From contig VLTN01000043.1 in the NCBI GenBank assembly GCA_008330645.1, forward strand, positions 1-64,000: 64,000 nt of DNA, read 5' to 3'. Of this stretch, positions 1 through 52,672 are shown in pieces (the stretch's first letter is position 1; each line of letters begins with the position of its first letter). Source of the stretch: Cafeteria roenbergensis (lineage: Eukaryota; Sar; Bigyra; Bicosoecida; Cafeteriaceae). The notes beneath the pieces are model-generated. The model searched no databases. It saw only the letters and a list, made by a program, of their open reading frames with translations, and was not told the DNA's origin. The translations under genes and the position numbers were made by a program.

Positions 1-1602
1 GGACAAGGACTGCGTCGTGGGCAAGGAGGCCGACCTTCATGCCGCCAGGGTGAAGAAGCGCTACCAGCTGGCGCACGTGTGGAGGTCTGACATCGCGGGG
101 GCTGTCGAAGGCTTGGAAGAGCTGCGCGCCGAGATCGAGGAGCTGGCGCTGGAGGCGATGATGGAGCTCGGATCTGACGACGAGTCGTCGGATGACATGG
201 AGGCAACTGCAAACCTGGTGGAGGAGTTCATCAGGGCATGCAAGGGAGCCCGCTGCCTGGCCGCAGCGACAGGGTTCGAGGGCTTCTTGCCCGACACCCT
301 GGGTAAGCTGCCGGGCGAGCTGAAGGCCAAGCTCCGCAAGTGCCTGTACGGCGACGGGGTGACAGCGCGGGCGAACGAGCAGACCGAGGCGCCCTGGCAG
401 CGCAAGATGGTGCTGCACCACGATGACATGCTGCGCATCAAGCACGAGTGCGCCTTCCTGCGCCGGCTGGCCAAGGCGCGCAGGGCCTGCACAGCACGCT
501 GCAGGGCCGAGGCGCTGGCCAAGGGCACGACGGAGAAGCGTGTCGCCAACATCGATGACCCGGCCATGTTCCGCGTCATGAGCGACCTGGTCGCGTTCCG
601 GGAGGCATGCGTGCCGGGAACACACTACTGGCTCCGCAACACGATGATGGGACCCCGCGGGCTCACGGACGAGGAGTTTGCGGTGGTGGAACGCTACCGC
701 ATCGGAGCCTCCGAGGCCGACCACGTGGTGCCGGACGGCGTGTCGATCAACTGCGCGTGCATGCAGCGAGACACCACCGCGAGAGGCACCGTCCACATCG
801 GCGGGGTCTCCGGCGTGGCGCACCACCTGGCGCGTTGCCGCTGCGGCAAGGGCTCCACCATCCGGGCGCACAACGACGTCCGCGACGTCCTGCACGCGGC
901 GGTGCGCTCGGCGGGGCTGCAGTCGGTGGTGGAGCCCTCCAGCTGGCAGGACGGTCAGGCGCGCTTTGGATCCCAGCCGGGGTCCAGCGAGGCCGCGCGC
1001 AAGCGACCGGACCTGCGGGTGCACGTCGACTTCGAGACCACCCGTCTCGTCGACGTGCAGATCACCTCGGCGGTGAGCAAGTCCTACGTGACGCAGGGCC
1101 TGCAGAACATGGACGCCTTTCTCGAGCGCCGTGAGAATGACAAGATGAGGGAGTACAAGAAGAGCTCAGCTACAAAGGACAACATGAGCTCCATTGTGCC
1201 CTTCGTCATCACGACCACGGGACGCATGGGACCGGCGGCCTTCGCCTTCCTCAAGAAGGTGGCGGACACGGCCTTCGGCGACCGGCCGAGGGAGCGTGCG
1301 CGCTGGGCCTTCCGCTGGCTGTCGAGGCTGAACGAGGTCATCGCCAAGGGACTGGCGACCCAGCTGATCGGGCAGACGCAGTACCTGCGACAGCAGGTGG
1401 AGCGTTTGCGGTGAGCAGGGGCGGCTGAGTGGCGACTCGAGGCAGTGTGATGGGAGTGATCTGGGCTTGGGACTTGGGATTGTGGGTTTGGCGCGGTTTG
1501 TGACTCATTGGTGATGGAGTTGCTGGATTGGTGATTGGTGAGTCTGTGAATCGAGTGTGTGGTATGGTTACGCGAGTTTTCGACCCCCCCCAACGATGTT
1601 CA
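1..1602 (+). mobile_element. Non-LTR retroelement copy A, 3' part
   Basis: This is the 3' portion of a non-LTR retrotransposon that enters from the left edge. It holds the end of the ORF (stop at 1412-1414) and a 188-nt 3' UTR. The UTR ends with eight C followed by AACGATGTTCA at 1592-1602, and there is no poly(A). The same UTR and terminus recur in copies B and C, which fixes the 3' boundary. The reverse transcriptase domain would lie upstream of the window and is not seen. Copy A is the least damaged of the three. Confidence 0.85.
2..1414 (+). CDS. Retroelement polyprotein C-terminus (zinc knuckle plus restriction-like endonuclease), 5' partial
   Basis: The frame is open from base 2, so the 5' end is missing; the first internal start-like codon at 17 is GTG and is probably not a real start. 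An N-terminal alpha-helical, Arg/Lys-rich segment is followed at about residues 250-285 by a Cys/His cluster (CACMQ ... HHLARCRC) that resembles the CCHC motif preceding RLE endonucleases. Then comes the typical RLE order: R-x-HN-x-VRDVL, AG-x-x-SVVEP, RPDLRV, and VDVQIT, where the acidic residues of RPDL and VDV fit the PD-(D/E)XK active site. The conserved tail VPFVITTTGRMGPAA and a terminal helix finish the protein. In R2/CRE/NeSL-type elements this domain nicks target DNA to prime reverse transcription. The exact clade cannot be set without the RT domain. Confidence 0.75.
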   Translation, partial: DKDCVVGKEADLHAARVKKRYQLAHVWRSDIAGAVEGLEELRAEIEELALEAMMELGSDDESSDDMEATANLVEEFIRACKGARCLAAATGFEGFLPDTLGKLPGELKAKLRKCLYGDGVTARANEQTEAPWQRKMVLHHDDMLRIKHECAFLRRLAKARRACTARCRAEALAKGTTEKRVANIDDPAMFRVMSDLVAFREACVPGTHYWLRNTMMGPRGLTDEEFAVVERYRIGASEADHVVPDGVSINCACMQRDTTARGTVHIGGVSGVAHHLARCRCGKGSTIRAHNDVRDVLHAAVRSAGLQSVVEPSSWQDGQARFGSQPGSSEAARKRPDLRVHVDFETTRLVDVQITSAVSKSYVTQGLQNMDAFLERRENDKMREYKKSSATKDNMSSIVPFVITTTGRMGPAAFAFLKKVADTAFGDRPRERARWAFRWLSRLNEVIAKGLATQLIGQTQYLRQQVERLR

Positions 1603-1607
1603 TCATC

Positions 1608-2193: not shown

Positions 2194-5100
2194 CTAGATT
2201 TCGATCATTCCCAGGGTACAAGCCCAGCGCGTCAAGTGGCGGCGGCGATGCCATCGCTGGAGCCGCTCGGCACTGCGAAGCACTTCGGCGCACGCACCGC
2301 TCGTGCAAAGGGCCAGCGCGTTCTTGCCAGTCTGCAGTCGAATTCCCGAGTTCGTTGGCCAAGCAAAAGCAATCGAGTCTTTCGCCAAGGTATGCATCAT
2401 GAACGGCGATCTCTTGGGGCCAGGACTCAAGTTTGACAAGTGCTAGTTCATTGCAACCGATGGGCTCGTCACCGGCACTCCAGGGACATGGCAAGCTGAG
2501 CAGTGTCTGCAATATCACATTGTTCGTGGCCTCCAGGTCGGCGCCACGGTCCAGCAGCAGCTCCACCGTGTCCGTGTGGCCACGCCATGCAGCACGAACT
2601 AGCGCCGTACGACCATACTGCGACGTCGCAGGCCCGCACGTCACCGTACCTCGTCGCGCCATCGCTCCCACACCAACGGCCCCCCCACGCCAGCGCCACC
2701 TCACACGCCGGCCCGCCACAGGAGCACCGCGCCCCGACGCATCATCGCCGTCGCCACGCCGCCCGGCCCGCCCGCCCGCGACGCCCGGCCCGGCCCGTCG
2801 CGCAGCAACACACGGCCACCGCACTCACTCTGTCCTTGGCCTGCAGGTCGGCGCCACGGTCCAGCAGCAGCTCCACCGTGTCCGTGTGGCCACGCCATGC
2901 AGCACGAACTAGCGCCGTACGACCATACTGCGACGTCGCAGGCCCGCACGTCACCGTACCTCGTCGCGCCATCGCTCCCACACCAACGGCCCCCCCACGC
3001 CAGCGCCACCTCACACGCCGGCCCGCCACAGGAGCACGATGCCCCGACGCATCATCGCCATCGCCGCTCCCCGGCTCGACCGCCCGTGACGCCCGGCGCG
3101 GCCTGTCGCGCAGCAACACACGGCCACCGCACTCACTCTGTCCTTGGCCTGCAGGTCGGCGCCGCAGTCCAGCAGGAGCTCCACCGTGTCCGTGTGGCCT
3201 TCAGATGCAGCCCAAACTGGCGCCGTACGACCATACTGCGACGTCGCAGGCCCGCACGTCACCGTACCTCGTCGCGCCATCGCTCCCACACCAACGGCCC
3301 CCCCACGCCAGCGCCACCTCACACGCCGGCCCGCAGCAGGAGCACGACGCCCCGACGCGTCACCGCCATCGCCGCGCTCCCCGGTCCGCCCGTGACGCCC
3401 GGCGCGGCCTGTCGCGCGGCAACACACGGCCGCCGCACTCACGCCGTTCTGGGCCTCCAGGTCGGCGCCACGGTCCAGCAGCAGCTCCACCGTGTCCTTG
3501 TGGCCTCGTGCTGCAGCCCGAACAAGTGCCGTAGCGCCATACTGCGACGTCGCAGGCCCGCACGTCACCGTACCTCGTCGCGCCATCGCTCCCACACCAA
3601 CCGCCCCCCCATGCCAGCGCCACCTCACACGCCGGCCCGCCATAGGAGCACGATGCCCCGACGCATCATCGCCATCGCCGCTCCCCGGCTCGACCGCCCG
3701 TGACGCCCGGCGCGGCCTGTCGCGCAGCAACACACGGCCACCGCACTCACTCTGTCCTTGGCCTGCAGGTCGGCGCCGCAGTCCAGCAGGAGCTCCACCG
3801 TGTCCGTGTGGCCTTCAGATGCAGCCCAAACTGGCGCCGTACGACCATACTGCGACGTCGCAGGCCCGCACGTCACCGTACCTCGTCGCGCCATCGCTCC
3901 CACACCAACGGCCCCCCCATGCCAGCGCCACCTCACACGCCGGCCCGCCACAGGAGCACGATGCCCCGCCGCATCATCGCCATCGCCGCTCCCCGGCTCG
4001 ACCGCCCGTGACGCCCGGCGCGGCCTGTCGCGCAGCAACACACGGCCACCGCACTCACTCTGTCCTTGGCCTGCAGGTCGGCGCCACGGTCCAGCAGCAG
4101 CTCCACCGTGTCCGTGTGGCCACGCCATGCAGCACGAACTAGCGCCGTAGCACCATACTGCGACGTCGCAGGCCCGCACGTCACCGTACCTCGTCGCGCC
4201 ATCGCTCCCACACCAACGGCCCCCCCATGCCAGCGCCACCTCACACGCCGGCCCGCCACAGGAGCACGATGCCCCGACGCATCATCGCCATCGCCGCTCC
4301 CCGGCTCGACCGCCCGTGACGCCCGGCGCGGCCTGTCGCGCAGCAACACACGGCCACCGCACTCACTCTGTCCTTGGCCTCCAGGTCGGCGCCACGGTCC
4401 AGCAGCAGCTCCACCGTGTCCGTGTGGCCACGCCATGCAGCACGAACTAGCGCCGTACGACCATACTGCGACGTCGCAGGCCCGCACGTCACCGTACCTC
4501 GTCGCGCCATCGCTCCCACACCAACGGCCCCCCCACGCCAGCGCCACCTCACACGCCGGCCCGCCACAGGAGCACGATGCCCCGACGCATCATCGCCATC
4601 GCCGCTCCCCGGCTCGACCGCCCGTGACGCCCGGCGCGGCCTGTCGCGCAGCAACACACGGCCACCGCACTCACTCTGTCCTTGGCCTGCAGGTCGGCGC
4701 CACGGTCCAGCAGCAGCTCCACCGTGTCCGTGTGGCCACGCCATGCAGCACGAACTAGCGCCGTAGCGCCATACTGCGACGTCGCAGGCCCGCACGTCAC
4801 CGTACCTCGTCGCGCCATCGCTCCCACACCAACGGCCCCCCCATGCCAGCGCCACCTCACACGCCGGCCCGCCACAGGAGCACGATGCCCCGACGCATCA
4901 TCGCCATCGCCGCTCCCCGGCTCGACCGCCCGTGACGCCCGGCGCGGCCTGTCGCGCAGCAACACACGGCCACCGCACTCACTCTGTCCTTGGCCTCCAG
5001 GTCGGCGCCGCAGTCCAGCAGGAGCTCCACCGTGTCCGTGTGGCCACGCCATGCAGCACGAACTAGCGCCGTAGCACCATACTGCGACGTCGCAGGCCCG

Positions 5101-5788
5101 CACGTCACCGTACCTCGTCGCGCCATTGCTCCCACACCAACGGCCCCCCCACGCCAGCGCCACCTCACACGCCGGCCCGCCACAGGAGCACGATGCCCCG
5201 ACGCATCATCGCCATCGCCGCTCCCCGGCTCGACCGCCCGTGACGCCCGGCGCGGCCTGTCGCGCAGCAACACACGGCCACCGCACTCACTCTGTCCTTG
5301 GCCTCCGGGTCGGCGCCGCAGTCCAGCAGGAGCTCCACCGTGTCCGTGTGGCCTTCAGATGCAGCCCAAACTAGCGCCGTAGCACCATCCTGCGACGTCG
5401 CGAGCCCTCAACAACCACAACCCACACGGCTTGCGACTGGCGCAGCCTCACGCTAGCCACCCAGCGGCACCCAGCACGCCTTGCCACCGCCTCGATCGCC
5501 ATCACGTTTTTCAATCACTGTCGCAGGCCCTCACGTTTTCCCGCGCAGGCCGTGGCGCAGTAGCCCGGCTGGTGAAAGAAAGACACCTGGCTAGTTCTAT
5601 CACGATCCATGCCCCCGACAGCGAGCGGGAAGCGTGCCTACAGTCTCAGGGCTCACGACAGCAGCGTTTTTCCAATTCACCGGCGCGCCCTCATCGAGCA
5701 GCTTGCATGCCTGGGCGGTGTGCCCGGCCTTCGCCACCTCCCAGAGCTCGCTTGCCATTGCACTTTCATCCATAGCAGGGGTGGACAT
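2194..5788 (-). CDS. Ankyrin-repeat protein 1 (12 exons, about 419 aa)
   Basis: Rebuilt as 12 phase-0 exons. Exon 1 is 5657-5788 (ATG at 5786-5788; 44 codons beginning MSTPAMDESA). Ten 99-nt ankyrin exons follow: 5291-5389, 4983-5081, 4675-4773, 4367-4465, 4059-4157, 3751-3849, 3443-3541, 3137-3235, 2829-2927 and 2519-2617. The C-terminal cap exon is 2194-2331 (stop TAG at 2194-2196). Each middle exon encodes one 33-residue repeat (YG-x-TALVRAA-x-x-GHTDTVELLLD-x-GAD-x-x-AK). Donors are mostly GTGAGT and acceptors GCAG; the last donor, GTGATA, is weaker. The first exon (SELWEVAKAGHTAQACKLLDEGAP) is itself ankyrin-like. Start and cap match the paralog at 6704-8994. The product is probably a soluble protein-binding scaffold; the partner is unknown. 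Retroelement copy C lies about 125 bp upstream. Confidence 0.8.
2519..5389 (-). repeat. Tandem array of exon-plus-intron units of about 308 bp (10 copies)
   Basis: Ten 99-nt ankyrin exons are spaced at 308 bp (one interval 310, one 306), and the separating introns of 207-211 nt are nearly identical to each other as well. The repeated unit is therefore exon plus intron, not exon alone. Exon differences are confined to a few codons (AAWRG/AASEG/AAARG, DRG/DCG, LEAK/LQAK), and the SEG-DCG combination recurs in three units. This indicates recent unequal exchange or gene conversion. Confidence 0.9.
5390..5656 (-). other. Intron 1 of ankyrin gene 1
   Basis: This 267-nt intron runs from a GTGAGC donor (5651-5656) to a GCAG acceptor ending at 5390. 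It joins the leader exon to the first ankyrin exon in phase 0. The matching intron of the paralog is 274 nt (8589-8862). No coding potential is recognised in it. Confidence 0.7.
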
Positions 5789-5913: not shown

Positions 5914-6452
5914 ACGTCCGCGACGTCCTGCACGCGGCGGTGCGCTCGGCGGGGCTGCAGTCGGTGGTGGAGCCCTCCAGCTGGCAGGACGGGCAGGCGC
6001 GCTTCGGATCCCAGCCGGGGTCCAGCGAGGCCGCGCGCAAGCGACCGGACCTGCGGGTGCACGTCGACTTCGAGACCACCCGTCTCGTCGACGTGCAGAT
6101 CACCTCGGCGGTGAGCAAGTCCTACGTGACGCAGGGCCTGCACAGCATGGACGCCTTTCTCGAGCGCCGTGAGAAGGACAAGATGGGGGAGTACCAGAAG
6201 AGCTCAGCTACAAAGGACAACATGAGCTCCATTGTGCCCTTCGTCGTCACGACCACGGGACGCATGGGACCGGCGGCCTTCGCCTTCCTCAAGAAGGTGG
6301 CGGACACGGCCTTCGGCGACCGGCCGAGGGAGCGTGCGCGCTGGGCCTTCCGCTGGCTGTCGAGGCTGAACGAGGTCATCGCCAAGGGACTGGCGACCCA
6401 GCTGATCGGGCAGACGCAGTACCTGCGACAGCAGGTGGAGCGTATGCGGTGA
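5914..6452 (+). pseudogene. Retroelement endonuclease domain fragment (copy C)
   Basis: This fragment carries the RLE core from VRDVL to the terminal helix with the frame open to TGA at 6450-6452. It differs from copy A by a few substitutions (HSMDAF for QNMDAF, REKDKMGEYQ for RENDKMREYK, a final MR for LR). It lacks the zinc knuckle and the upstream RT, so it is a dead 5'-truncated copy even though the visible frame is undamaged. The apparent ORF extending upstream to 5634 is host sequence read in the same frame. Confidence 0.8.
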
Positions 6453-6641
6453 GCAGGGGCGGCTGAGTGGCGACTCGAGGCAGTGTGATGGCAGGGATCT
6501 GGGATTTGAGACTTGGGATTGTGGGTTTGGCGCGGTTTGTGATTCATCGGTGATGGAATTGCTGGATTGGTGATTGGTGAGTCTGTGAATCGAGTGTGTG
6601 GTATGGTTACGCGAGTTTTCGACCCCCCCCAACGATGTTCA
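5914..6641 (+). mobile_element. Non-LTR retroelement copy C, 5'-truncated
   Basis: Homology to copy A starts at about 5914 (copy A base 877) and runs to the shared AACGATGTTCA terminus at 6631-6641. It fills the space between the two ankyrin genes: its 5' junction is about 125 bp upstream of the ankyrin gene 1 ATG and its 3' end is 63 bp from the ankyrin gene 2 stop. No clear target-site duplication was found by eye. Confidence 0.85.
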
Positions 6642-6703
6642 AAGCACAAGATTTCCATCACAGACACACAACGATGGAAAAGCCAAAATATAAAATCCCC
6701 GCA

Positions 6704-8994
6704 TCAGTGCGCCCACATTGCAAGAATATTGCGGCGGTGCCATCGCTGGAGCCGCTCGGAACTGCGCAGCACTTCGGTGCAGCGAGCTCTCGTGCACAGG
6801 ACCAGCGCGTCGCTGCCAGCCTGCACTCAAAGCACAAACGTGACGGTAAAAGCAATTGCGATCGAGCCATTCGCAACGGCAAGCCTCATGCACAGCGACC
6901 GTTTGAGGCCGCTGCTAAAAGCCTCCATGCTCTGCCTCCGCCGCAACCGATGCGATGGGTGCCACCGAGCACCGGGGGTTTTGCAAGACAAGCAGCTTTT
7001 GTTGTTTCACAGCGTTCTTGGCCTCGACGTCGGCGCCGCGATCCAGCAGCAGCTTCACGGCTTCCACGTGACCCTTCGTAGCCGCAGCGATCAGGGCCGT
7101 AGCGCCAAACTGCGCGGACATGTGCTCACGTCTCATCGCACTCCGTCGCACCCTCAATCCCCTCCCGACATCCACACTCCAGCGCCGCCTCCCGCCCCCG
7201 CCGGCACACGACACGAGCACGATGACCCGACGCCGCCTTGCCGTCGCGGCCCCCGGCCCGCTCGCGACGCCCGCCGCGGTCCCGTGGCGCATCATAGAGA
7301 CCGTCGCCAAACTCACGCGGTTTTTGGCCTCCAGGTCGGCGCCGCGATCCAGCAGAAGCTCCACCATGTCCGTGTGGCCCCCGGCTGCAGCCCGAACAAG
7401 CGCCGTGTTGCCATTCTGCAAGGTCGCATGCCCGCATGTCACAGCACGTTTACCCACCAGTGCCACCCTCACGACATCCCCCAAACAACGTGCCGACACA
7501 CCATCGCCATCCCACCCCCCGGCCCGCCCGCGACGCCCGCTGTGGTCCCACCGCGCAGTACACGCTAGAGCCGCATTCACTCGGTCCTTGGCCTCCAAAC
7601 TGGCGCCGCGGTCCAGCAGAAGCTCCACCATTTCCTTGCACCCACACCTTAGGGCTCCAATAAGCACCGTGGAGCCATGCTGCGACGTCGTATGCCCACG
7701 TGTCACCCCACGCTGTGCCGCGTCATCGATCCCCTCCCGACATCCACACACCGGCGCTGCCTCCCGCCCCCGCACACAACATGTGCGCGACGCACCATCG
7801 CAACCGCCGCGCCGCCCGGCCCGCCCGTGACGCCCGGCGCGGCCCGTCGCGCAGCACACACACCGTCGCCGCGCTCACGCGGTTCTTGGCCTCCAGGTTG
7901 GCGCCGCTGTCCGCCAGCAGCTCCACCATTTCCTTGTACCCACATCGTACAGCCCCAATAAGCGCCGTATCGCCATGCTGCGACGTCGCATGCCCACGTG
8001 TCACCACATGTTGCGTCGCGCCCTCAATCCCCTCCCGACATCCACACACCGGCGCTGCCTCCCGCCCCCGCACACAACGTGTGCTCGACGCCCCAACGCC
8101 GCATCGCCATCGCGCCCCCCGGCCCGCCCGCGACGCCCGCCGCGGTCCCGTGGCGCAGCGCACACACCGTCGCCACACCTACAAGACTCCTGGCCTCCAA
8201 GTCGGCGCCGCGGTCCGCCAGCAGCTCCACCATGTCCTTGTGGCCTCCGGCTGCAGCCCGAACAAGCGCCGTCGAGCCATACTGCGAGGTCGCACGCTCG
8301 CATGTCGTAACGCGCAGCATCACACCGCCGATCCCCTCCCGACATCCCCACTCCAGCGCCCCCTCCCGCCCCGCCGGCACACGACACGAGCACGACGCCT
8401 CGACGCCGCCTCGCCGTCGCGGCCCCCGGCCCGCCTGCGACGCCCGCCGCGGTCCCGTGGCGCAGCACACACACCGTCGCTGCACCCACGTGGTCTTTGG
8501 CCTCCAGGTCGGCGCCGCGGTCCAGCAGAAGCTCCACCGTGTCCGTGTGGCCTCCGGCTGCAGCCCGAACAAGCGCCGTGTCGTCGTCCTGCGACGTCGC
8601 ATGCCCGCATGTCACCACACGCAGCATCACACCATCGATTCCCTCCCGACATCTCGCCAACAGCGCCCCTTCCCTCGCCGGTCCAAGTCCTTAGATTGTT
8701 GTGCGCTGGTCTCTGCGTCTGCCGCCCGCGGCCCACAAGTGGTGGCTGGCGCGGTCCCTGGCACAGGCCTCCAGCCCCAGTCACGCTGATCAAGGACACG
8801 CGTTCTCCTCCTCAGCAGGCACGGCGACTTGGGAGCACCACGCCGTGACGCCAAACACTCACGGCCGCGGCGTGTTTCCAGTCACACGGCGCCCCCGCAT
8901 CGAGCAGCCTCCTTGCTTCGGCAGTGGCCCCCTCATTCGCCGCCTCCCAAAGGGCAGCGCCCATCGCGTCCACGTTCACTGCAGGGGCGGCCAT
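6704..8994 (-). CDS. Ankyrin-repeat protein 2 (8 exons, about 280 aa), paralog of gene 1
   Basis: Rebuilt as eight phase-0 exons. Exon 1 is 8863-8994 (ATG 8992-8994, 44 codons, MAAPAVNVDAMGAALWEAAN). Six 99-nt ankyrin exons follow: 8490-8588, 8183-8281, 7879-7977, 7581-7679, 7317-7415 and 7011-7109. The C-terminal cap exon is 6704-6820 (stop TGA). Donors are GTGAGT/GTGAGC with GTGAAT, GTAGGT, GTGGGT and GTGAAA variants; acceptors are CAG. Repeats read TALVRAAAGGHTDMVELLLD-x-GADLEAK. The first exon has the same length (44 codons) and layout as in gene 1, and the cap shares LCT-x4-EVLRS-x-ERLQRWHRR. The repeats are more diverged than in gene 1. The frame is open upstream of the chosen ATG to 9153, so a longer N-terminus is possible. 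The partner is unknown. Confidence 0.8.
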
Positions 8995-11100: not shown

Positions 11101-11754
11101 AGAGAATGTGGACACCGTTGAACACCTTCCTCGCTCATTTCTCTGCCTTGAACGAGCGTGCGCGACCACGAGGTCGTGTGCGACTTGCTCAACTCTTAAT
11201 CGCCGCTGCAGGACTGCTGAGGACGGGGAAGGTGGGCTGCGGCGGGACCGAGAAGCCATTTTCGTCGTGGCCGTTGATCCTCAACCAGCTCCAGCCTCCC
11301 TGCTATCGCTCACAGGGCCAGGTTGCCAGGTCTGAAGATGAATCCTTTGCGTCTTCATGTGATCTCAACGCATGGGCCGCTTGCTGTTCGAAAGAACTCA
11401 TCGGAATGGCCTGACTGGTGTGACGCCTGCAGTGCTGGCCACAAAGGAGCCGTCAGCGTCGGCAGAGCCACCCCAACTGCAAGCGGCCTGTGAAGTGTGA
11501 GGTGATAGGGCACTTGGGTCGTGTGGAGACGCTGGAATCGGACTCGTGAGGCTTCTGCGGAGCGATGAATGGCCAGAATGGCCTTTGCGCAGTCCGCGAT
11601 GCGGCCGCAAAGAAGCCTCCCAGCTCGAGAGAATGCGTTGAAGAGTGATGGGTATAATGTCGCTGTCATTCACGACCCCATCCGTGTATTCGTCGGTGGA
11701 ATCTACGTCGATGGCCTTCGCAATGACGCCAGCCATGCCGAAGTCGCTGGAATG
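11101..11754. other. MULE internal region, left, no gene recognised
   Basis: This unique sequence lies between the left inverted repeat and the minisatellite. An ORF that begins at 11569 (+) runs on into the repeats, but its unique part (MARMAFAQSAMRPQRSLP...) has no recognisable domain. Confidence 0.5.
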
Positions 11755-12990
11755 ACGTCAACAGCGTCGACGTCGCTCGGAAGGACGTCAACAGCGTCGA
11801 CGTCGCTTGGAAGGACGTCAACAGTGCCTAGAAGGACGTCAACAGCGTCGACGTCGCTTGGAATGACGTCAACAGTGCATAAAAGGACGTTAACAGCGTC
11901 GACGTCGCTTGGAAGGACGTCAACAGCGTCGACGTCGCTTGGAAGGACGTCAACAGTGCCTAGAAGGACGTCAACAGCGTCGACGTCGCTTGGAAGGACG
12001 TCAACAGTGCCTAGAAGGACGTCAACAACGTCGACGTCGCTTGGAAGGACGTCAACAGCATCGACGTCGCTCGGAAGGACGTCAACAGTGCCTAGAAGGA
12101 CGTCAACAACGTCGACGTCGCTTGGACTGACGTCGACAGCGCCTAGAAGGACGTTAACAGCGTCGACGTCGCTTGGAAGGACGTCAACAGCGTCGACGTC
12201 GCTTGGAAGGACGTCAACAGTGCCTAGAAGGACGTCAACAGCGTCGACGTCGCTTGGAAGGACGTCAACAGTGCCTAGAAGGACGTTGACAGCGTCGACG
12301 TCGCTTGGAAGGACGTCAACAGCGTCGACGTCGCTTGGAAGGACGTCAACAGTGCCTAGAAGGACGTCAACAACGTCGACGTCGCTTGGAAGGACGTCAA
12401 CAGTGCATAGAAGGACGTTAACAGCGTCGACGTCGCTTGGAAGGACGTCAACAGCGTCGACGTCGCTTGGAAGGACGGCAACAGCGTCGACGTCGCTTGG
12501 AAGGACGGCAACAGTGCATAGAAGGACGTTAACAGCGTCGACGTCGCTTGGAAGGACGTCAACAGCATCGACGTCGCTCGGAAGGACGTCAACAGCGTCG
12601 ACGTCGCTTGGAAGGACGTCAACAGCGTCGACGTCGCTTGGAAGGACGTCAACAGCATCGACGTCGCTCGGAAGGACGTCAACAGCGTCGACGTCGCTTG
12701 GAAGGACGTCAACAGTGCCTAGAAGGACGTCAACAACGTCGACGTCGCTTGGACTGACGTCGACAGCGCCTAGAAGGACGTTAACAGCGTCGACGTCGCT
12801 TGGAAGGACGTCAACAGCGTCGACGTCGCTTGGAAGGACGTCAACAGTGCCTAGAAGGACGTTGACAGCGTCGACGTCGCTTGGAAGGACGTCAACAGTG
12901 CCTAGAAGGACGTCAACAGCGTCGACGTCGCTTGGAAGGACGTCAACAGTGCCTAAAAGGACGTCAACAACGTCGACGTCGCTGGAATGG
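11755..12990. repeat. Minisatellite: 30-bp and 21-bp units inside the MULE
   Basis: The block is built of 30 copies of a 30-bp unit (it contains ACGTCAACAGCGTCGACGTC) and 16 copies of a related 21-bp unit (ACGTCAACAGTGCCTAGAAG plus G), which together give exactly the 1236 bp observed. Both units carry GACGTC or ACGTC palindrome cores, and the long one also carries GTCGAC. Both lengths are multiples of three and contain few stops, so long frames stay open on both strands (TSTASTSLGR on +, DVDAVDVLPS on -). Whether either is translated cannot be told. Confidence 0.95.
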
Positions 12991-13808
12991 ATGTCACAGT
13001 TGCTCGGATGGACTTCAGCCGTGTCTTTGTTGGATGCCAACCGCGCTTGGACGACTGCCAATCGGGTTGATGCTCCGTGAGAAGTTCTTTGACCGAGTGC
13101 GTTTTGGCAACGATGCAGCCTGCGCTTGGTTGGTCCTGTGTTCAAGTTTGCAGGTGGGCGTGGCCTTGATGATCGTGCGCTCCGCTGGGCTCACGGGCCA
13201 CTACGGCTCGTGGGTGTCACGCGTAGCCAACCCATCGCGCCATATGTGCTGTGCCCACTGTGCAGAGCTGTGAAATTTGCGCGACCAAGCAGCTCGAACT
13301 GCGTCAAGTGCTCTGCTGTCACATGCGGTTCGCAACATTGTCGCCGGCACGCACCATGGCGTTACAACAGTACTTGCACGACTGATTCAATGCGTTGGCG
13401 GATAACCGTCTGAGGTGCGCTAGCAGGCAGTGTGGGGCTGTTCTTCACTTGGCCTGAGCCTCGACGCGGAGGCTCACTCGAAAAGCCTTCACGTGCCCGT
13501 TTCCTGGACTGGAGCTGCAACGCCTGCTCCGCATGGTCCCAGAGTCGCGCAAGTGCCGCGCTTCGGCTTTCGATTGTACCGCCTGTCACTTTGACGGAGT
13601 GGTTGATCGCCAGTGTGATGGTGGTCGCATGCCCGCGACAGTCCACTGTGCCTTGCCCCGTGGGAGCTGAAGCGTGGTTGACGTGGGGGCAGATACCAGA
13701 CTGGGGGCAGTAGGGGATGCCGGCACATGGCCATCTGCACCACAGGGGCTGAGTGCAAAACTTGTTGCCCGCTCCCAGAGGGAGTCAAGAGTAGCGTCTC
13801 GAACGTCC
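12991..13808. other. MULE internal region between minisatellite and transposase
   Basis: Minus-strand frames here (13586-13927 and 13362-13646) look protein-like (for example RDATLDSLWERATSFAL and SAALARLWDHAEQALQLQ) and may be continuations of the transposase in shifted frames. On the plus strand, 13126-13413 contains a cysteine-rich stretch, CPLC ... NCVKCSAVTCGSQHCRRH, that resembles a zinc-binding module. Neither reading can be confirmed by eye. Confidence 0.4.
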
Positions 13809-16800
13809 TCAAAGCAACCAAATTCCAGTGTAAACAGAGAAGTAGTATGCAGCGCAGAAGTGGCGACAACAGACGGATGCATAAGTTGTACGCGACGCCA
13901 CTTCGCAGCTGCAGCTTCGTCGAGCAAGGTCGACCCGAAACCCTGCTGAAGCTATGCCTGTTGCAAGGTCGTCTTGAACGAAGAAGGACGACGGAAACTC
14001 AAAACGAATAGGACTGGCGGCCCCAGTTTGATTGGCTTCGATAGCCTCCAGCGTGATGACGATTCCCTCGGCCGCCGGACGGCTCGCTAGCGCAGCCCGC
14101 TGAGAAGGCCGTGCGTAACCGCCTTGACGGGAAAAGAACAGCACGGCCGTCGCCGCCCCGAAGCTATGACACGCCGTGAACCGGTTGACTGGGCTTCCTA
14201 CCAGGTCATGCAGCGCTGCAAGCTGCGACCTTGGCCGGCGACACCGGTGGAAGTGGTTTTTTACTCCAGAAAACGTTCCCTCCGCAGCGTTGTTCGAAGC
14301 GTCGGAGCAATACACGCTCCGATTGGCAGCCAGCCAACTGACGCAAACTTTGGGCTGCAGCTGAGCGCGAACGTAGGCCACTAGCGTCCTCGCAGAGTCA
14401 AGAGAAACTTGCGCCTGACTCACGCCGTCGGCCAGAAGGTGCACCAGGCGAGAAAAGTTGCCCGCGACTCCTATGCCTTGCTTGCTGTCCCGAATGTCAA
14501 GCCAGGCACGCTGAACTTGCTTGCGAAGATGCAACGTCTTGACGCACGTGCTAGTTTTACGTACCATGGTTTGATTCTTGTGCCAGCTGCAATGTAGGTG
14601 CTGAAGTGCATCAGCTGGCAGGAGCGATGCAAGGTCGCCCCAGCCTGGGGATCCTGGCGGGGTGCTGCCGCCGGCCCCCAGGGCAGCTGCTATGTGCTGA
14701 ATAACCCTTGGCAAGCATCGCTGTGCTGGCCTGCCAGAGGGCAAGCGCGGCGGACCTGCCAGGGTCGGCTTGAGCGCGCTCGCAAGCAGCTTGAAGAACC
14801 GTCACTGCGTTGAGCACAATTTCGCTGAACTTTCTCTGCCTTTCCTTGGCTGATGAGCTCCGAAACAGCGGCGTAGAGGGCGCTGGCAGAGCCAGAAGCT
14901 CTTGGTTGGGCTATTGTCCAATGACCAGAGCTCCCGCTCGACGGGCCCACGCTAGGGACTGTAAGTCGCGACGCAGATTCCAAAACGCCTCTCCGGCGCC
15001 CAAGGATGGCAGCAGCAGCGGCTCTTGGGTTTGCCTGGCTGGACCGGATTCGACGAGCCCAACCGTTTGCATCAACAATCTTCACAGCGGAGGCATCGCG
15101 TTTTGGATCCACCAACGCGTGCCGCACGCGAATCGAAGACGCCCGCAGCCCTGTTGCGCGGTGGATGATAGATTCAATCGAACTCAGCTGCCAAGCAAAT
15201 GATTCCAACTCGTCAACTGAGAACAGGTCCTGCTGGCGCTCCACTGCGAAGGCAACGACATGACTGCCGTCTGCAGACACCCCCAACGATGTCTAGCGTC
15301 CCCCGCGATGTTGGAAGCGACGTCGAACACGCGCAGCCCGGTGCAGATGGACCTCAGAGGAGCCCCAGCCTCACGAAGAGGCGGGGTGCTGGCAAAAGAG
15401 TCTTGCAAGGCGCTGACCAAGCTTCCAACGTCAGCAAGCCGTCCCTCGGCAATGCTGCGGGACTTGGAAATGCCGCTTCACGCGGGGGATGAGGGACTCC
15501 GGCATCAGAGTGCTCGCCGGCTCGAGTTTCCGGAGATCGCAAATCCATGCTTGCGAAGCATAGCCTTTCCTCGAGAGAGCCTCGCTGCTGAAGCAGGACG
15601 CTGTAGACCTGGGACTCTGGGTCAAAAAAGACGGAAGAGTGCATACCCCTCAGGGCTTGGAATGCCAGTTCGGCTTGGAATGCCTCCCCGTGTTTCAAGG
15701 CCGACCTTGAAGAGGCGTTGCATTGTGTTGTCACGGAGGGACTCTCCCGACTCGGTGAGGAGCCGACTGCCACGCGTGACGGCCGCTCAGGAGGGCAGGG
15801 GCTCGCAGCAACGGTTGCCTGAGAGTGCATGCCGCAAGCCTGCGTTGGTTGAGCCTGTTGATCGGGGGAAGGACGGTGTGCATCAGGAGCTTGCAGCGAA
15901 GAGGAATCGTCAGCCTGCAGGGAGCAGGCATCGCTCTGCAAACAGGGTCGGAGGGGCCGCCGCGCAACACCCTCCCCTGCGTGAACGACAACGCGATCTT
16001 GGACAACACTGCTTGCGCCGCCGGAGACTCTGGACTCAGCGGGTCCGTCGGCCGAGGGCTAAACCCCATGGCCTTCGCCAACAGGAATGCGACATCAGCG
16101 TCTTCTTCTCCGTTTCCTGAGTCAGCCGAACCGAGCCCGGAGCGCCACTCTTGAATCTGTCGACTCAAAAGCTTGCTCTTGAACGCGGTGCAGGCCCACA
16201 GAAACTCCGGCGCTTCATCAGACACTGTCAATGCTGGAATGGGAGATTGGAAGCCCCAAACCTGAGCGCCAGCAACTCCCAGAGCAGCTCGAGGGCGCAG
16301 AGTGTCGATGCTTTGGTGAACTTTGGGCCAGCACCCGGAGAGGCCGGCATCTGACTCTCCGTGAGGAGTTCCGGCTGGCACGACTCTCTCCAGCGTCGCC
16401 CAGCCTAGCGGCACAACGCAGTCTCCAACACTACTTTTGCATACGAGCCCAAGCAGCGCACCTGCACCACTTCCAGCGGAGTTGAAGGTGTCGTCCACAT
16501 TCAGCACTCTGAGCATGTCGAGATCCCTTGCAACCATGTCTGGGACCTGCCTGTGCATGAACAGCCTGACTTGCACATGTTCGTCGCCTTCCTTCACCTC
16601 GCGTTGCCCCGTCAATCCTTGACGGCTGTACTCGTCAACGAACTCCTGCAAACTGCTTTGGTCTCCCACTGATGATTCCTTGTACAGTCGACGCTTCAGG
16701 TTGCACACGTCATCCTTCGACACATACATTCGCTGCACTCCGATGTAGGCCGGAGGAGCCGACCGCTGGAGCGCCTCAAGCTGCCGTTGTTGCCGCATCT

Positions 16801-18457
16801 TCAAAGATGCGCCCTTGGCAATCGCTGTGCTGTCCGTTCCTGTCTGGGCACAAGCCGCGCAAGCCCGTCGGATTGCACATGCCTCAAATGTTCCAGGAAC
16901 ATCCCCTCGGTCAAAACTGCGAGCCTCCGAGAGCATGGCGTTGACCACGGACATGACGGTCGTCGGTTGTGCCTTCATGCCTGCCATACTGAGGTGAGCG
17001 ACCAACGTTGCCTGAGCCCGAGGGTCCATCGGGAAAAGCCTGCCCAGAACACTGTCGGGCGCCTGACTCCGGACCCACTCGCCACAGCGCGAAACGCACT
17101 CATTGCAGTGAGCAGTGGAAAACACAATAACGGTCGTGCCCAACTCGACCAGCCGGAGACGCCCTGGGCACTTGAGACCGCTGTGAACGCGGACCTCCCC
17201 GTGAGCACGGGCTGCAACGGATCGAACGTAGCGCTCGTCAGGCAACTGAGCCTGATATCTCCTGCCAGACACCGCAGTGCCATGGCCAGCAGGTCCAACG
17301 CCTGGCGATATGGCAGAAACAGGCAATGGCACTGAAGCAGCCGGTGGCACTACCACAGGCGAGTCAACGGGGCCAGTGCTGCTCGCTGCTGAAAGCGGGG
17401 CTGTCCCACGGGGAGTAGCACTTGAGCCGTGCTGCAGGCTCGCCACCATGCTGTCCGGTCCCTCGGAAGCATCGGCAGTTGATGCTGTGGGCGGAATCAA
17501 GGCTGCCGCGTCTAATTGCTGAGTGAGCTGGCTCAAAGGCAAGCCTACAGGCGAGGAACCGTCGCTCGTGGATCCGTTGCAGCCACTAGCCTCGCTGGCG
17601 CCGCCGTCCGCGTGGCCATCGCCAGCGCAACTGCCACCTGGGCCATCGTCGTCCGGCCGGTGATCTCCCTCGGAAGCATCGGACAGGTCAACTCCTGCAG
17701 CGGTCAAAAGAGCAGCATTCTCTTGCGATGATCCCCATCGTAGTGCCTCGCGGGGTTTAATGTCCTTGCGCGCGAGGCAGCGGTAAGTCACAGAGGCTCC
17801 GGTTGCCTTGCGACTCAGACCCGCCCCCGCCGCGGCAACGAGGGTTTGCACCTGCTTCCTGGCATCCACCAGCGTAGTCCCATCGACGACGGCGAAGTGC
17901 CCAAGCAGCAAGTCCTCCGGCTCAGCTGCTCTGGTCAGCCAATCTGACCTCCTTGGCAACGCGCGCCGAATGGACGAGGCGTTATACCATTTGGAAACCA
18001 TTTTCTGGGTAACCCGGTGACCGCAGCCACCGGGTGCGCCTCTGGTAGCCAGGAGAAAGGCTCTGCCGACGTCGGCAGGCAGTGACGACAAGCTCAGCGG
18101 GCTCTCCGCCGCTCTGAGCACTTCCAGTGCCACCAACTCCACGGCATGGGGCCTCAAATGATCTGAAATGCTCTGGAGCAAGCAAACCGTGACGGAGGTG
18201 GTCCTTATTGCAGGGGGAGCATCTCCAGTGCTGGCGGGAGCGGCGAAAGCAACGGTCGATTCGTTTCGGGCAGCAAACGCCGCTACAGCCCACAGAGCCT
18301 CGCTCAACCAAGAGCCATCTCTTCCAGGGGGCGTCGGATAGACGTACATGCTGGTCCTTTGATCAGTTGGCTGCATTCCGGCCAAGAACTTGCGAGCCAC
18401 GTGCGGCCTGTTGCTGGCAACGGCCACGGCGATCGCTTGGCGCCATCCTGGCTCCAT
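13809..18457 (-). pseudogene. MULE transposase, split between frames
   Basis: The N-terminal part is open from the ATG at 18455-18457 (inside the right TIR; the frame also extends upstream to a GTG at 18601) to the stop at 15731. It has an N-terminal region, a Cys-containing segment (LKCPGRLRLVEL ... STAHCNECV), and the DDE core start VLNVDDTFNSAGSG followed by PLGWATLER, matching the first catalytic Asp block of MULE transposases. The C-terminal part, 13809-14744, has LHCSWHKNQ, the NN-x2-E block CSDASNNAAEGTFSGVK (catalytic Glu) and a SWIM zinc finger, CSC-x12-CCRH. Between them, frames 15354-15941 and 14690-15286 look coding. The frame alternates four or more times, so either introns or frameshift decay separates the pieces; I could not match splice sites, hence the pseudogene call. 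Confidence 0.7.
15731..18457 (-). CDS. MULE transposase N-terminal ORF
   Basis: This is the longest uninterrupted transposase frame, about 908 codons from the ATG at 18455-18457. Residues about 280-430 are Ser/Pro/Ala-rich and probably disordered. The catalytic-domain start (NVDDTF) is at about residue 670. A second conserved acidic block (LTVSDEAPEFLWACTAF) follows some 80 residues later and may hold the second catalytic Asp. The last 60 residues (after SKIALSFTQGRV) look like a wrong-frame tail, which suggests the real coding path leaves this frame near 15,920-15,960. Confidence 0.6.
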   Translation of the reverse strand: MEPGWRQAIAVAVASNRPHVARKFLAGMQPTDQRTSMYVYPTPPGRDGSWLSEALWAVAAFAARNESTVAFAAPASTGDAPPAIRTTSVTVCLLQSISDHLRPHAVELVALEVLRAAESPLSLSSLPADVGRAFLLATRGAPGGCGHRVTQKMVSKWYNASSIRRALPRRSDWLTRAAEPEDLLLGHFAVVDGTTLVDARKQVQTLVAAAGAGLSRKATGASVTYRCLARKDIKPREALRWGSSQENAALLTAAGVDLSDASEGDHRPDDDGPGGSCAGDGHADGGASEASGCNGSTSDGSSPVGLPLSQLTQQLDAAALIPPTASTADASEGPDSMVASLQHGSSATPRGTAPLSAASSTGPVDSPVVVPPAASVPLPVSAISPGVGPAGHGTAVSGRRYQAQLPDERYVRSVAARAHGEVRVHSGLKCPGRLRLVELGTTVIVFSTAHCNECVSRCGEWVRSQAPDSVLGRLFPMDPRAQATLVAHLSMAGMKAQPTTVMSVVNAMLSEARSFDRGDVPGTFEACAIRRACAACAQTGTDSTAIAKGASLKMRQQRQLEALQRSAPPAYIGVQRMYVSKDDVCNLKRRLYKESSVGDQSSLQEFVDEYSRQGLTGQREVKEGDEHVQVRLFMHRQVPDMVARDLDMLRVLNVDDTFNSAGSGAGALLGLVCKSSVGDCVVPLGWATLERVVPAGTPHGESDAGLSGCWPKVHQSIDTLRPRAALGVAGAQVWGFQSPIPALTVSDEAPEFLWACTAFKSKLLSRQIQEWRSGLGSADSGNGEEDADVAFLLAKAMGFSPRPTDPLSPESPAAQAVLSKIALSFTQGRVLRGGPSDPVCRAMPAPCRLTIPLRCKLLMHTVLPPINRLNQRRLAACTLRQPLLRAPALLSGRHAWQSAPHRVGRVPP

Positions 18458-18774
18458 TGGGCCAGATTCCCGCGCCAGGGAGTCATTCCATGCCCTGACG
18501 ATGGATCTGTGGGGGGGAGGGGTGACACCGAAGGCCTGGAGAGGGTGGGGGAGGCTGGGCGTTTGACAGCGTAAATGGCGCCGACTTTGCCGCCGCCTCA
18601 CGCCTCGGTGGCGTGGTCCTGGGCGCTGCCCGCGTCACACATGAAGGTTTAGTAGTCTTTGCGCCGGTTTTTGCGAAAAAGCGGTGGTTTTGGCGGTGGT
18701 GTGGTTGCCGGAGTGGGCGGAAGGGAAAAAGATGTCAATAAGGGGGGGGGCTAAGGCCCCCTGTACGCTCTACC
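18424..18774 (-). repeat. MULE terminal inverted repeat, right (351 bp)
   Basis: This is the partner of the left repeat. The transposase frame starts inside it, so the promoter and the first roughly ten codons are contained in the TIR. Confidence 0.95.
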
Positions 18775-29955: not shown

Positions 29956-32900
29956 TCAGGAGGAACCGGAAACGAACACTCCAACTCCAGCCATGACCCA
30001 GCGGGCGGCGCCGCCGCGCGCAGAGCCCACCGGCAGAGACACCTCGGCGACGATGCGCTCACGGGCCGGGGACGAGTAGAGTGGCACCCTGAGACGGGGA
30101 CTGGCGTCCGCGTCCGCAAGCGCACGCTTCGCGTCGGGAGACACCCACGCCATGGAGCAGGGCGGGGTGGCGGCCAAGTCTGGCGCGTCGGGCTTTGCCT
30201 CTTGGAGAGCCGCCGGGCTGCCCCCGAGCGTTGCGCCCTGCATGAGCAGCGAGTCGGCCTCCACAATCACATCGGCTGGAACGCCTGCAGACACCAGCTC
30301 CCGGCGCCCAGAGAAGGACGTTTCCAGCTCAAGCTCGTCGATGGCAACCCCCAGCGCCCTCGCCGTTTGCTGCCTCACGGCGTTCAGGAAGGTTTCGGGA
30401 CGGAAGAGCTCCGCCAGCTTCACAGGGGCCGACAGCAGCCCGCCGCGAGCCACCTTGCGACGCCACTCGAACACCGCCTTGACGCGACTCACCGCCTCCC
30501 GCATCCATGCTCGCGGCTCCTGCGGGCCTTCCCACTGCGCCGCCCACGCGGACGGGACAGCGGAGCTCATGAGCGCCTCTCCAAGCCGCTCCACCGCCGA
30601 GGTCAAAGCCTCGCGACCGGAAAGCACCCGCCGGAGCGCCTCAAGGTCGCCCGACACGAGCCGGAACAGGGCCGCTCCGCGGCTTGCTTCCATGGCCACA
30701 AACGCGGCCACTGGCTCTTCATCGCCAGCCCCTGCTGCTCCGGCCCCACCTCTCGAGCCAACTGTGAGCTCACTCTCCGAAGGCAAGGACGAGCGCAGCA
30801 TGTCCCAAGCCTCCAGCACTGGTCCAAGCGCCGCACGCCACAACGAGACCTCGAATCCCGACACTGAAGCCGAAGCTGCCGACAGCGACACAATGGAACT
30901 GACGACCCTGTCGGAGGTTGCCCGCTGCAACGAGCGCTCTGCGTTGGCTGGGAGCCGGAACAGCTTGGGGCTGTCCGTCACGGGAAGAGCCCTTGCAAAG
31001 TCCGCGAGTTCCTTCGTGCTGCAGGCAAAGGGAACGCGTACGCCTCCGACCGCAGCGCGCCCAAGCTCTTCGGGGCCTTTGGGTAGCAGATCTGGGTGGA
31101 AGCAGATGCGCACGAAGGCTCTGAGAACCCGCACGTCGGCCGGGTCGTCCACCCTGCCGCCGTAGATGGCGCCCTCGAGCACCCCGTGCAGCGTTCGCCA
31201 GGGCAGGGCGCCGCCAGCTGCGCTCTCAACGACAGTGTCAATCACCGAGGCCGCCGCCCGGAGGTCGCCAGCGGAAAACTCGTAGGCCTTCGTCCACCCC
31301 TGAGGCACGTATGTGCGACGCTCCTGGACCAGCCCGTGGAACGCGGCAAGCAGAGCAAGCAGGTGCCTTCGGACGGGCGGCCCCCGTGCAACAAAGTCGG
31401 ATGGCCAAGCCGATACGGTGCGCTCCAGGTTGCGCCGCAAACCGGGGGGCGCCTCGAACGTGACCTTGAGGCACTCTTGCAGCAGAAACGGTGGGAAGTC
31501 GTCGTTGCACTCGGTCGTGAGCCACAGGCGAAAGGACGGATGGCGCTCGGACAGAGCCGCCAGCTCCTGCTGCAGAGCGGGAAGCCACGACGTGACGAGA
31601 TGCAAGTTTTTGAGGCAGATCCAGCCGCCGTCAGCTGCAGCGTCCCGCAGCATGCGAATGGCTTCGTCCTGCTGCCCGCCGCCCATCGCCAGCTCGCGAT
31701 AGCCCGACGGCCCCTCCCCTCCACGAGCGCCTGCCTCCACGGCAGCTGCTGCAGCCTCCTCCAAGTCCCGAGTGGGGTCGGCGCCCACGGTGGTCACCAT
31801 CAACAGCGGCTTGCGCGGCCCGGCCTCTGCTGCCAGCTCCGCGAGCGTCGAAGGCGCAGGACTGACGCTCTCGACTCCCAGGGTCGAGCAGACAAAGTCG
31901 CTCATTGCCGACACCAGTCTGTCCGGTCGGAGCGCTCGCACCACCAGCAGACGTTGCCATGCAGAGAGACTTGCGAGCGCGTCGGGCGGCATGTCGTCAA
32001 TGGTGGCGCCTGCGCGCGTGCCCCAGGCGTCCCACTCAGGCGGCAGGGGCGTGCGGAGCAGCCCAGAGCGTCGCATTGGCTCGGCGACTGCAGTGGCAAG
32101 CTCAGCAAATGCCGTGGCGCGGTCCGGAGGAGCCCAGAGCGGAAGCGAGGGCGGGCGTCCCGCGGCACCTCCAGCTGCCACCGTTGCCTGGCCGGTAAAG
32201 AGCTCCCACTCGCCAGCCCGAAACAGGTCGGGAAGGCAGCCATGTGCAAGGTGGAGCCCAAACATGAGGCGGTCCTCCTTGAGCAACGAGCGCGAGACGA
32301 AAAGCAAAATGCGCCGCTGCAGCTCTGGCACGAGACGAACCGCCTGCTCGGCTCCAAACGGCTCGCCACTCGACATCGATGCGGCGCCGTCGCGCACCGT
32401 CCCCACAAACACCGTCAAAAAGTCGGCAAGCGAAAATTGGTACATGTGGTTGTGCGCCGCGAGGGAGCCCAGCAGGAAGAAGAGCCGGCTGCCTCCTTGG
32501 GCGAGCGGCCTGAACGAGTCCCGCTGCTCGTCGATGGTGACCGCCGTGGCGGCAGACGCCTCCAGAGCAGTCGCAATGTCCGCAGACTTCGACTTGGTGA
32601 GCGTCAGCGACGAAACGAGCGACTTGTTTTCGAGCAAGTCGCCCTCTGACGCCGCCAGCTCCTGAATCAGGCCTCGCTCCAGGTCTGCAAGCTGCATCTT
32701 GAGGTCCTCCTCCTCTCGCAGCAGTCTGCTCTTCTCCGTCTCGAGAGTGGGGAGGATCTCTCGCAGCGTGGCGCCCAGCAGCTGCCCTTCGAGTCCGGAA
32801 CGAGTGACAGTGAAGTTCACGGTCGTCACAAGCGCGCGGGCGCTGGGCTCGAGCTGGACAGCGGGGTCCCTCGTGCAGACAAAGGCCCGGAACGAGTCGC

Positions 32901-52368: not shown

Positions 52369-52672
52369 GGCGCAGCGCACGGTGCCTCGGAGTCGGGGAC
52401 TGGGGGCTGGGTCTGTGCCTGCCGCTCGGACTCAAGTCGCCGCGCAGCAGGCATCGAGGACTCTGCCACGCGGCCTGCAGAGCACGCGTTCGGAGTGGCG
52501 GAGAGATTGCAGCGCTTCAAGAGTGGGCGGGAGGTGCGCGTCTTGCAAACGTGACAGCAACGGCCAGGCCGCGACAGCCGCGCTTCTCGTGCAGCTGCAC
52601 GTGCTGGGATCCCAAGCACACAGCCCGGCGCTCTGAGGCGGAAGGCGGCGCTGCGTGCGGGCTCGCTGTGCG
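52369..52672. other. Intergenic region between PLP enzyme and AAA+ gene
   Basis: About 304 bp that should contain the promoter of the PLP gene and the 3' UTR of the AAA+ gene; both are on the minus strand. No motif was recognised. Confidence 0.5.

Follow-up and report, generated by a model that had tools for sequence, protein, structure and literature searches.

The first 64,000 nucleotides of a Cafeteria roenbergensis contig (VLTN01000043.1, assembly GCA_008330645.1; hereafter the window), from a species named C. burkhardae in a later paper (PMC8547959, available part), carry on the minus strand at 5788-2194 an ankyrin-repeat gene, gene A, in which each 33-residue repeat has its own 99-nt exon and whole exon-intron modules recur in tandem. 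We found the same plan at 21 loci of the genome. Our account, to which we give a probability of about 0.72, is that of a modular ankyrin recognition family shaped by module turnover and selection on the binding face, and located mostly at chromosome ends. The architecture, the family, the mosaic exons, the substitution pattern and the contig-end position beside a retroelement were read from the sequence; from these we infer splicing in vivo, a cytosolic location, recognition, a partner, and unequal exchange as the event behind turnover.

The gene A model has the following parts:

5657..5788, minus strand: exon 1, which contains the start codon and encodes the N-terminal cap (44 amino acids; ATG...GTC, then GTGAGC)
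5390..5656, minus strand: first intron, 267 nt, GT...CAG, separating exon 1 from the first repeat exon
2519..5389, minus strand: repeat array with a period of about 308, made up of ten 99-nt exons and nine introns of 207-211 nt
5389-5291, 5081-4983, 4773-4675, 4465-4367, 4157-4059, minus strand: repeat exons 1-5
3849-3751, 3541-3443, 3235-3137, 2927-2829, 2617-2519, minus strand: repeat exons 6-10
2332..2518, minus strand: last intron, 187 nt, GTGATATT...CAG; comparable spacing (143-199 nt) lies ahead of the C-terminal cap at other loci
2194..2331, minus strand: last exon, C-terminal cap, 45 amino acids and stop

Exon 1 opens with MSTPAMDESAMASELWEVAK. Every repeat exon has CAG before it, GT after it and phase 0 at both ends, and encodes one ankyrin repeat; all nine inter-repeat introns start with GTGAGTGC and end with GACGTCGCAG. 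Tandem Repeats Finder reported the array as a 308-bp unit (9.3 copies, 94% matches, score 5052). A sequence-only reading of this DNA had described ten 99-nt phase-0 exons at 2519-5389, multiplied in tandem as whole exon-intron modules. The coordinates, the CAG/GT borders and the phase all hold, and the tandem multiplication is supported; that span proved to be the repeat array of a longer gene, which also includes exons 5788-5657 and 2331-2194. The two caps and ten repeats amount to 419 codons. Since the genome mean is only 1.67-1.89 introns per gene (PMC6972860, available part), the eleven introns of gene A are unusual.

The spliced product scored 269.7 bits against the Pfam model PF00023 (Ank; cut-off 21.1) in 10 stretches, with the best alignment placing profile positions 1-33 on residues 45-77, which correspond to one exon, and 275.9 bits against PF12796 (cut-off 27.3). 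PF25353 reached 27.7 bits (cut-off 27) with a match that overlaps the ankyrin repeats. The Pfam matches of the model were ankyrin families and PF25353, with no NACHT or NB-ARC domain, and no leucine-rich repeat (LRR) model was among the 13 Pfam families listed for the product. The homologs retrieved with the spliced protein were generic ankyrin proteins, and among the 120 listed of 5512, most of them entries without a name, none was named Cafeteria. In a search of solved structures with the first 176 residues, the best match was a designed ankyrin repeat protein (DARPin); Ankyrin-1 and Ankyrin-2 were also matched.

A search of the genome (167 contigs; 36,303,456 bases) gave at least 329 DNA matches with one module and 133 with one intron. 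A published primer given for strain RCC970-E3 has a single, exact match in the genome, and its partner has none. We examined 21 loci, comprising the window locus and 20 others that were fetched (a match region on contig C61 was left out), using an exon scan that required an upstream AG, an open 99-nt frame and an ankyrin-like score, and that did not require a downstream GT. Loci with at least two hits yielded 259 hits, and GT followed directly in 256/259, against a background frequency of 7.5%; the 99-nt length was set by the scan itself, and its support is the GT at exactly that distance together with the regular spacing. The scan produced 254 repeat exons in 25 groups (≥3 neighboring exons each), a total that counts the 10 exons of C129, a second copy of the C10 locus. 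With C129 left out, introns started with GT in 219/221 cases and ended with AG in 221/221 (the latter required by the scan), were of a length not divisible by 3 in 137/221, and could be read through in frame in 53/221. A related N-cap exon lay upstream of 21/25 groups and a related C-cap exon downstream of 11/25, with the query genes A and B (gene B adjoins gene A, see below) counted and with several groups stopping where the contig or the fetched stretch stops, which limits both counts.

Ten genes carried both caps, with 5 repeats in C4, 6 in C155, 6 in gene B, 9 in C8, 10 in gene A, 14 in C10, 14 in C55, 17 in C12, 21 in C14 and 24 in C74, and this range of 5-24 supports the earlier suggestion that copies can be gained or lost without a frame shift. 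One frameshifted module was found in C10, within its 14 repeats, and another in C129. The C129 copy matched C10 at 99.2% and 98.8% identity in two long pieces; over the first 8.3 kb, the flank contains 10 of 30 mismatches and 39 of 44 gap columns, and the other 20 mismatches fall in modules 7, 8, 10 and 11. Between the two pieces, at modules 12-13, 229 bp of C129 stand opposite 398 bp of C10, reflecting either a rearranged allele or an assembly fault. The comparison is clouded by many single-base indels and does no more than suggest module differences. Listings of the freely accessible literature showed no earlier description of these arrays, and neither of the two Cafeteria genome papers uses the word 'ankyrin' in its main text. 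Uniform-exon ankyrin modules with 99-nt exons and other unit lengths were seen on C136 (L046:270-950; 289 bp) and C15 (L045:8508-9718; 278 bp). Long ankyrin-repeat open frames without introns occur on C28 (802 amino acids), C45, C46, C48, C86, C126 and C162; these frames are a further kind of ankyrin gene in those regions, and on C28 and C45 a copy of the retroelement described below lies <1.5 kb away.

The modules of gene A differ more in their exons than in their introns. Mean pairwise divergence was 3.05% for introns and 10.2% for exons (36 module pairs), reversing the statement of the sequence-only reading that the introns are almost as alike as the exons. Seven modules with a common intron varied at 17/99 exon columns versus 5/209 intron columns (Fisher p 8.5e-6), and all nine modules with introns at 25/99 versus 24/212 (p 0.0025), tests in which sites inside one block are not independent. 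Exon differences among the seven alter residues 1, 3, 6, 8, 11, 12, 24, 28 and 29, and the modules of the gene differ in exon blocks and in two introns. Four exon blocks (nt 7-8, 22-36, 60-72 and 85) occur in 7 combinations among the ten exons. In a four-combination test, 42/91 informative exon site pairs showed all four combinations, compared with 0/6 intron pairs, so exon pieces were exchanged among the modules of gene A. The joint reappearance of multi-base blocks points to exchange rather than repeated mutation.

Across the family, divergence within arrays was 0.178 for exons and 0.152 for introns, and between arrays 0.224 and 0.240 (229 introns), from which it follows that arrays are homogenized internally, introns more than exons. 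Mean exon divergence exceeded intron divergence in most, not all, of the 25 single groups. The nearest neighbor lay in the same array for 72% of exons, 80-81% of 99-column intron pieces and 87% of whole introns, which makes exons the less array-specific part. Among 97 module pairs with introns <3% apart, 47 had exons >10% apart; conditioning on near-identical introns inflates exon divergence, and the two are decoupled as well when exons are conditioned on, with introns >10% apart in 9 of 35 pairs whose exons are <3% apart. Because the decoupling appears in both conditionings, recombination inside modules acts both ways.

We then compared repeat positions with the positions randomized in designed ankyrins, which we take to be residues 1, 3, 11, 12, 31 and 33, and used these as an a-priori binding-face set, with the register of designed ankyrins taken from the solved-structure match. 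Over 244 repeats, those of C129 excluded, residue entropy was highest at positions 8, 1, 33, 11, 12 and 3, so that five of the top six belong to the assumed set and residue 8 lies outside it; taken together, the six face positions gave a permutation p of 1.2e-4. The earlier proposal that the variable residues sit where ankyrins bind partners is borne out to the extent of this match with the assumed positions. Within arrays (1536 module pairs), nonsynonymous divergence (pN) was 0.38 at the face and 0.116 elsewhere, compared with a synonymous divergence (pS) of 0.213 and an intron divergence of 0.148; these values come from uncorrected counting rather than a recombination-aware codon model, and recombination can disturb them. 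Face pN was 2.2-3.2 times the intron value and 1.56-2.24 times pS (bootstrap over 22 arrays), and exceeded the array's own intron value in 22/22 arrays. Gene A alone gave a face pN of 0.30, other pN of 0.05, pS of 0.116 and intron divergence of 0.03. The best reading of these sequence comparisons is that purifying selection maintains the scaffold and diversifying selection acts at the face, on top of exchange.

The arrays point toward the nearest contig end at 17/21 loci. Every array lying ≤12 kb from the end of a contig of ≥64 kb points outward (14/14; sign test 1.2e-4), a count in which only the contig start is known for C43, the window contig, and five of these 14 reach the contig end itself (C88, C20, C2, C29 and C60). 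Outside 12 kb of a long-contig end are C4, C10 and C12, which are long contigs, and C55. A retroelement accompanies the arrays, and in the window three copies flank gene A:

1..1603, plus strand: 3' part of the retroelement with an open frame at 17-1414, its 5' side toward the contig start
1604..2166, plus strand: second copy, 5'-truncated, 97% to the first copy
5914..6650, plus strand: third copy, 5'-truncated, between genes A and B, identified by eye

The gap between the 3' end of the second copy and the end of gene A is 27 bp. We take the element to be a non-long-terminal-repeat retroelement because its copies are 5'-truncated and a reverse transcriptase (Pfam) lies upstream of another copy. 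A search with the 3' part gave 58 matches from the best 40 of 265 candidates scored; 31/32 plus-strand matches start in the first 9.5 kb of a contig (the exception being C85:99346) and 26/26 minus-strand matches end ≤7.7 kb from a contig end, so the 5' side of the element faces outward. With a shorter 3'-tail query taken from the third copy, 42/49 matches were ≤12 kb from the end faced by the 5' side, the exceptions being on C55, C76 (two), C85 (two), C107 and C114. The element is present at both ends of C3, C17, C30 and C31. Among the matches listed, it lies between the array and the end pointed to at ≥9/21 loci (C43, C68, C31, C51, C79, C14, C74, C15 and C55), and also at the ends of contigs without an array. 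As for canonical telomere repeats, the assembly contains neither exact (TTAGGG)2 nor exact (TTTAGGG)3. A chromosome-end position of the arrays is likely, with the qualification that contigs can also break in repeats and their ends are not proven chromosome ends, and the retroelement may cap or border those ends. In flies, telomeric retroelements are found at chromosome ends.

In the account we prefer, gene A would be a spliced gene for an ankyrin-only solenoid of ~419 residues, probably cytosolic, and whole exon-intron modules would multiply and disappear by unequal exchange. Modules would be homogenized inside each array, exon blocks would be reshuffled between modules, and selection would hold scaffold residues fixed and favor change at binding-face residues. 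Most likely, the proteins would serve as a set of natural binders for molecular recognition, with a virus, bacterial prey or a parasite, or self/non-self as candidate partners; recognition is suggested by the combination of an ankyrin fold, a fast-changing face and the lack of another domain.

Several observations weigh against this account. The exon excess in gene A is not due to selection alone, because exon pS is raised too (0.116 vs 0.03 for introns); positive selection as the sole cause of diverse exons on uniform introns was therefore rejected for that gene. Fourfold sites are near introns family-wide (within/between 0.169/0.245 vs 0.148/0.233), and the four-combination test on gene A introns comprised 6 pairs only. 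In other arrays, four-combination pairs are also common in introns (16 of 17 tested), and pooling 17 arrays gave 923/2527 exon and 2849/12745 intron pairs, so exchange touches both parts, not exons alone. Cross-locus exon sharing is scarce (0 identical, 8 pairs with ≤5 differences), which implies that exchange occurs mostly inside one array, and inter-locus exon exchange was rejected as the main source on the same grounds. The face positions are an assumed set, residue 31 of that set ranks just 12th in entropy, and the same entropy peaks would be expected for old ankyrin repeats generally. Four arrays (C4, C10, C129 and C12) do not point to the nearest contig end. Use of the 99-nt splice sites is a prediction from sequence, and near-identical modules may have been assembled imperfectly even from long reads.

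We considered whether the arrays could instead be products of neutral tandem amplification by unequal crossing-over near chromosome ends, with no recognition role and with many arrays perhaps decaying. Tandem modules and concerted evolution would suffice for the high internal identity, and the frameshifted modules of C10 and C129 speak for such a process, yet the scaffold is constrained (pN 0.116 vs pS 0.213), the face exceeds pS in the pooled data and introns in every array, and the 99-nt splice sites are kept in nearly all exon hits; we consider neutral amplification improbable. We judge it unlikely, though with some plausibility, that these proteins are scaffolds or adaptors of the cell's own machinery, in which repeat number tunes length and variation fits many fixed cellular partners. 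The gene A product is ankyrin-only, with no clear effector or signaling domain, and the structure matches of its first 176 residues include both designed ankyrins and Ankyrin-1/2, as such a role would allow; rapid change among recent copies and a chromosome-end position would nevertheless be odd for proteins with fixed partners.

The retroelement could itself spread modules by co-mobilization or exchange, as proposed for REP in Tetrahymena, in which case the arrays would track the element and not selection on the protein. Its copies between array and contig end at ≥9/21 loci, 27 bp past gene A and between genes A and B are in keeping with this, as is a comparable association in Tetrahymena (PMC6564038, available part); but among the matches listed the element also sits at array-free contig ends, and nearness may reflect shared location alone; we consider spread by the element improbable. 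It is very improbable that the arrays are assembly artifacts, with module number or order wrong through mis-assembly of near-identical 308-bp units. Five arrays do reach a contig end and the C129 flank contains many single-base indels, but the modules of gene A differ in exon blocks and two introns, and the plan recurs at 21 loci.

Vertebrate ankyrins resemble the arrays in their 33-residue repeats, often with one exon per repeat, and differ in that theirs are old, fixed repeats with unrelated introns and no known recent amplification. The closest published design is the LRR gene family of Tetrahymena (PMC6564038; statements on this source refer to its available part), and the ankyrin repeats of fungal NLR proteins (PMC4986451, available part) are similar in evolutionary mode. 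The Tetrahymena genes, like those here, have repeat-length exons of one size and introns of one phase, with an exon-intron unit of ~347 bp in T. thermophila group III versus ~308 bp here and variable exon numbers in both (1-51 versus 5-24; PMC6564038). They are enriched in pericentromeric and subtelomeric regions and adjoin a non-LTR retroelement (PMC6564038), which the likely chromosome-end position of the arrays here and the element copies beside ≥9/21 loci may parallel; signs of recombination among exons are common to both. They differ in encoding LRRs from 90-bp exons in phase 2 (here ankyrin, 99 nt and phase 0), in number (~72,000 exons in the species studied, far more than here), in lineage (ciliate versus stramenopile), and in having near-identical exons common to different genes, which are hardly seen here (0 identical; PMC6564038). 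Fungal NLR genes, including hnwd WD40 genes of Podospora (PMC2873952) and ANK/TPR genes (PMC4986451), likewise contain near-alike repeats with concerted evolution and unstable number, and in the available parts of both papers binding-face positive selection is reported, with ankyrins among the repeats; the corresponding values here (face pN 0.38 vs pS 0.213) come from a counting method and an assumed set of sites. In the fungal proteins the repeats follow a NOD domain (PMC2873952, PMC4986451), whereas here the protein is ankyrin-only with one exon per repeat; the main text of the hnwd paper never uses the word 'intron' (PMC2873952). DARPins have the same plan as gene A, namely an N-cap, interchangeable internal 33-residue repeats, a C-cap and one varied face (PMC8683736, available part), but they are man-made libraries, and the natural arrays vary most at residue 8 (DARPin position 10), outside the assumed set.

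Gene B (8994-6704, minus strand) adjoins gene A and follows the same plan:

8863..8994, minus strand: exon 1, N-cap, 44 amino acids
7011..8588, minus strand: six 99-nt repeat exons (8588-8490, 8281-8183, 7977-7879, 7679-7581, 7415-7317, 7109-7011)
6704..6820, minus strand: last exon, C-cap

Its introns diverge by 22.9%, far above those of gene A, and gene B looks like the older array because of this much greater divergence. Other features of the window are:

11742-12996, open on both strands: tandem repeat of ~132 bp, 9.3 copies, 86% matches
13809-18601, minus strand: two open frames that matched no Pfam family, the first with a Cys-His-rich end that by eye resembles the SWIM-type motif of transposases
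29956-43743, minus strand: uninterrupted 4595-codon frame, by eye dynein heavy chain-like, in contrast with the intron-rich ankyrin genes
50173-52380, minus strand: open frame; its homologs contain PF00282 (pyridoxal-dependent decarboxylase), and two relatives at 85-87% identity suggest that a close relative of the flagellate was sequenced elsewhere

We tentatively propose, at less than even odds, that C. burkhardae, which the giant virus CroV infects, maintains a natural, DARPin-like library for non-self recognition, which would be a second independent invention of uniform repeat exons beyond Tetrahymena. Chromosome-end genes would then encode intracellular binders, the uniform introns would serve as safe exchange sites, and new binding faces would arise by adding, losing and block-swapping one-repeat exons. 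The authors of the Tetrahymena study wrote that no other eukaryote of comparable uniformity was known to them, and suggested a single origin (PMC6564038). With the arrays described here, uniform repeat exons are seen in two eukaryotic lineages and two protein folds, which counts against that suggestion. The arrays join module turnover, exon block exchange and face change in one family of a cultured flagellate, and the uniform introns provide a built-in yardstick beside every repeat. As this flagellate serves as a model in research on giant viruses and virophages, a recognition role would be directly testable there.

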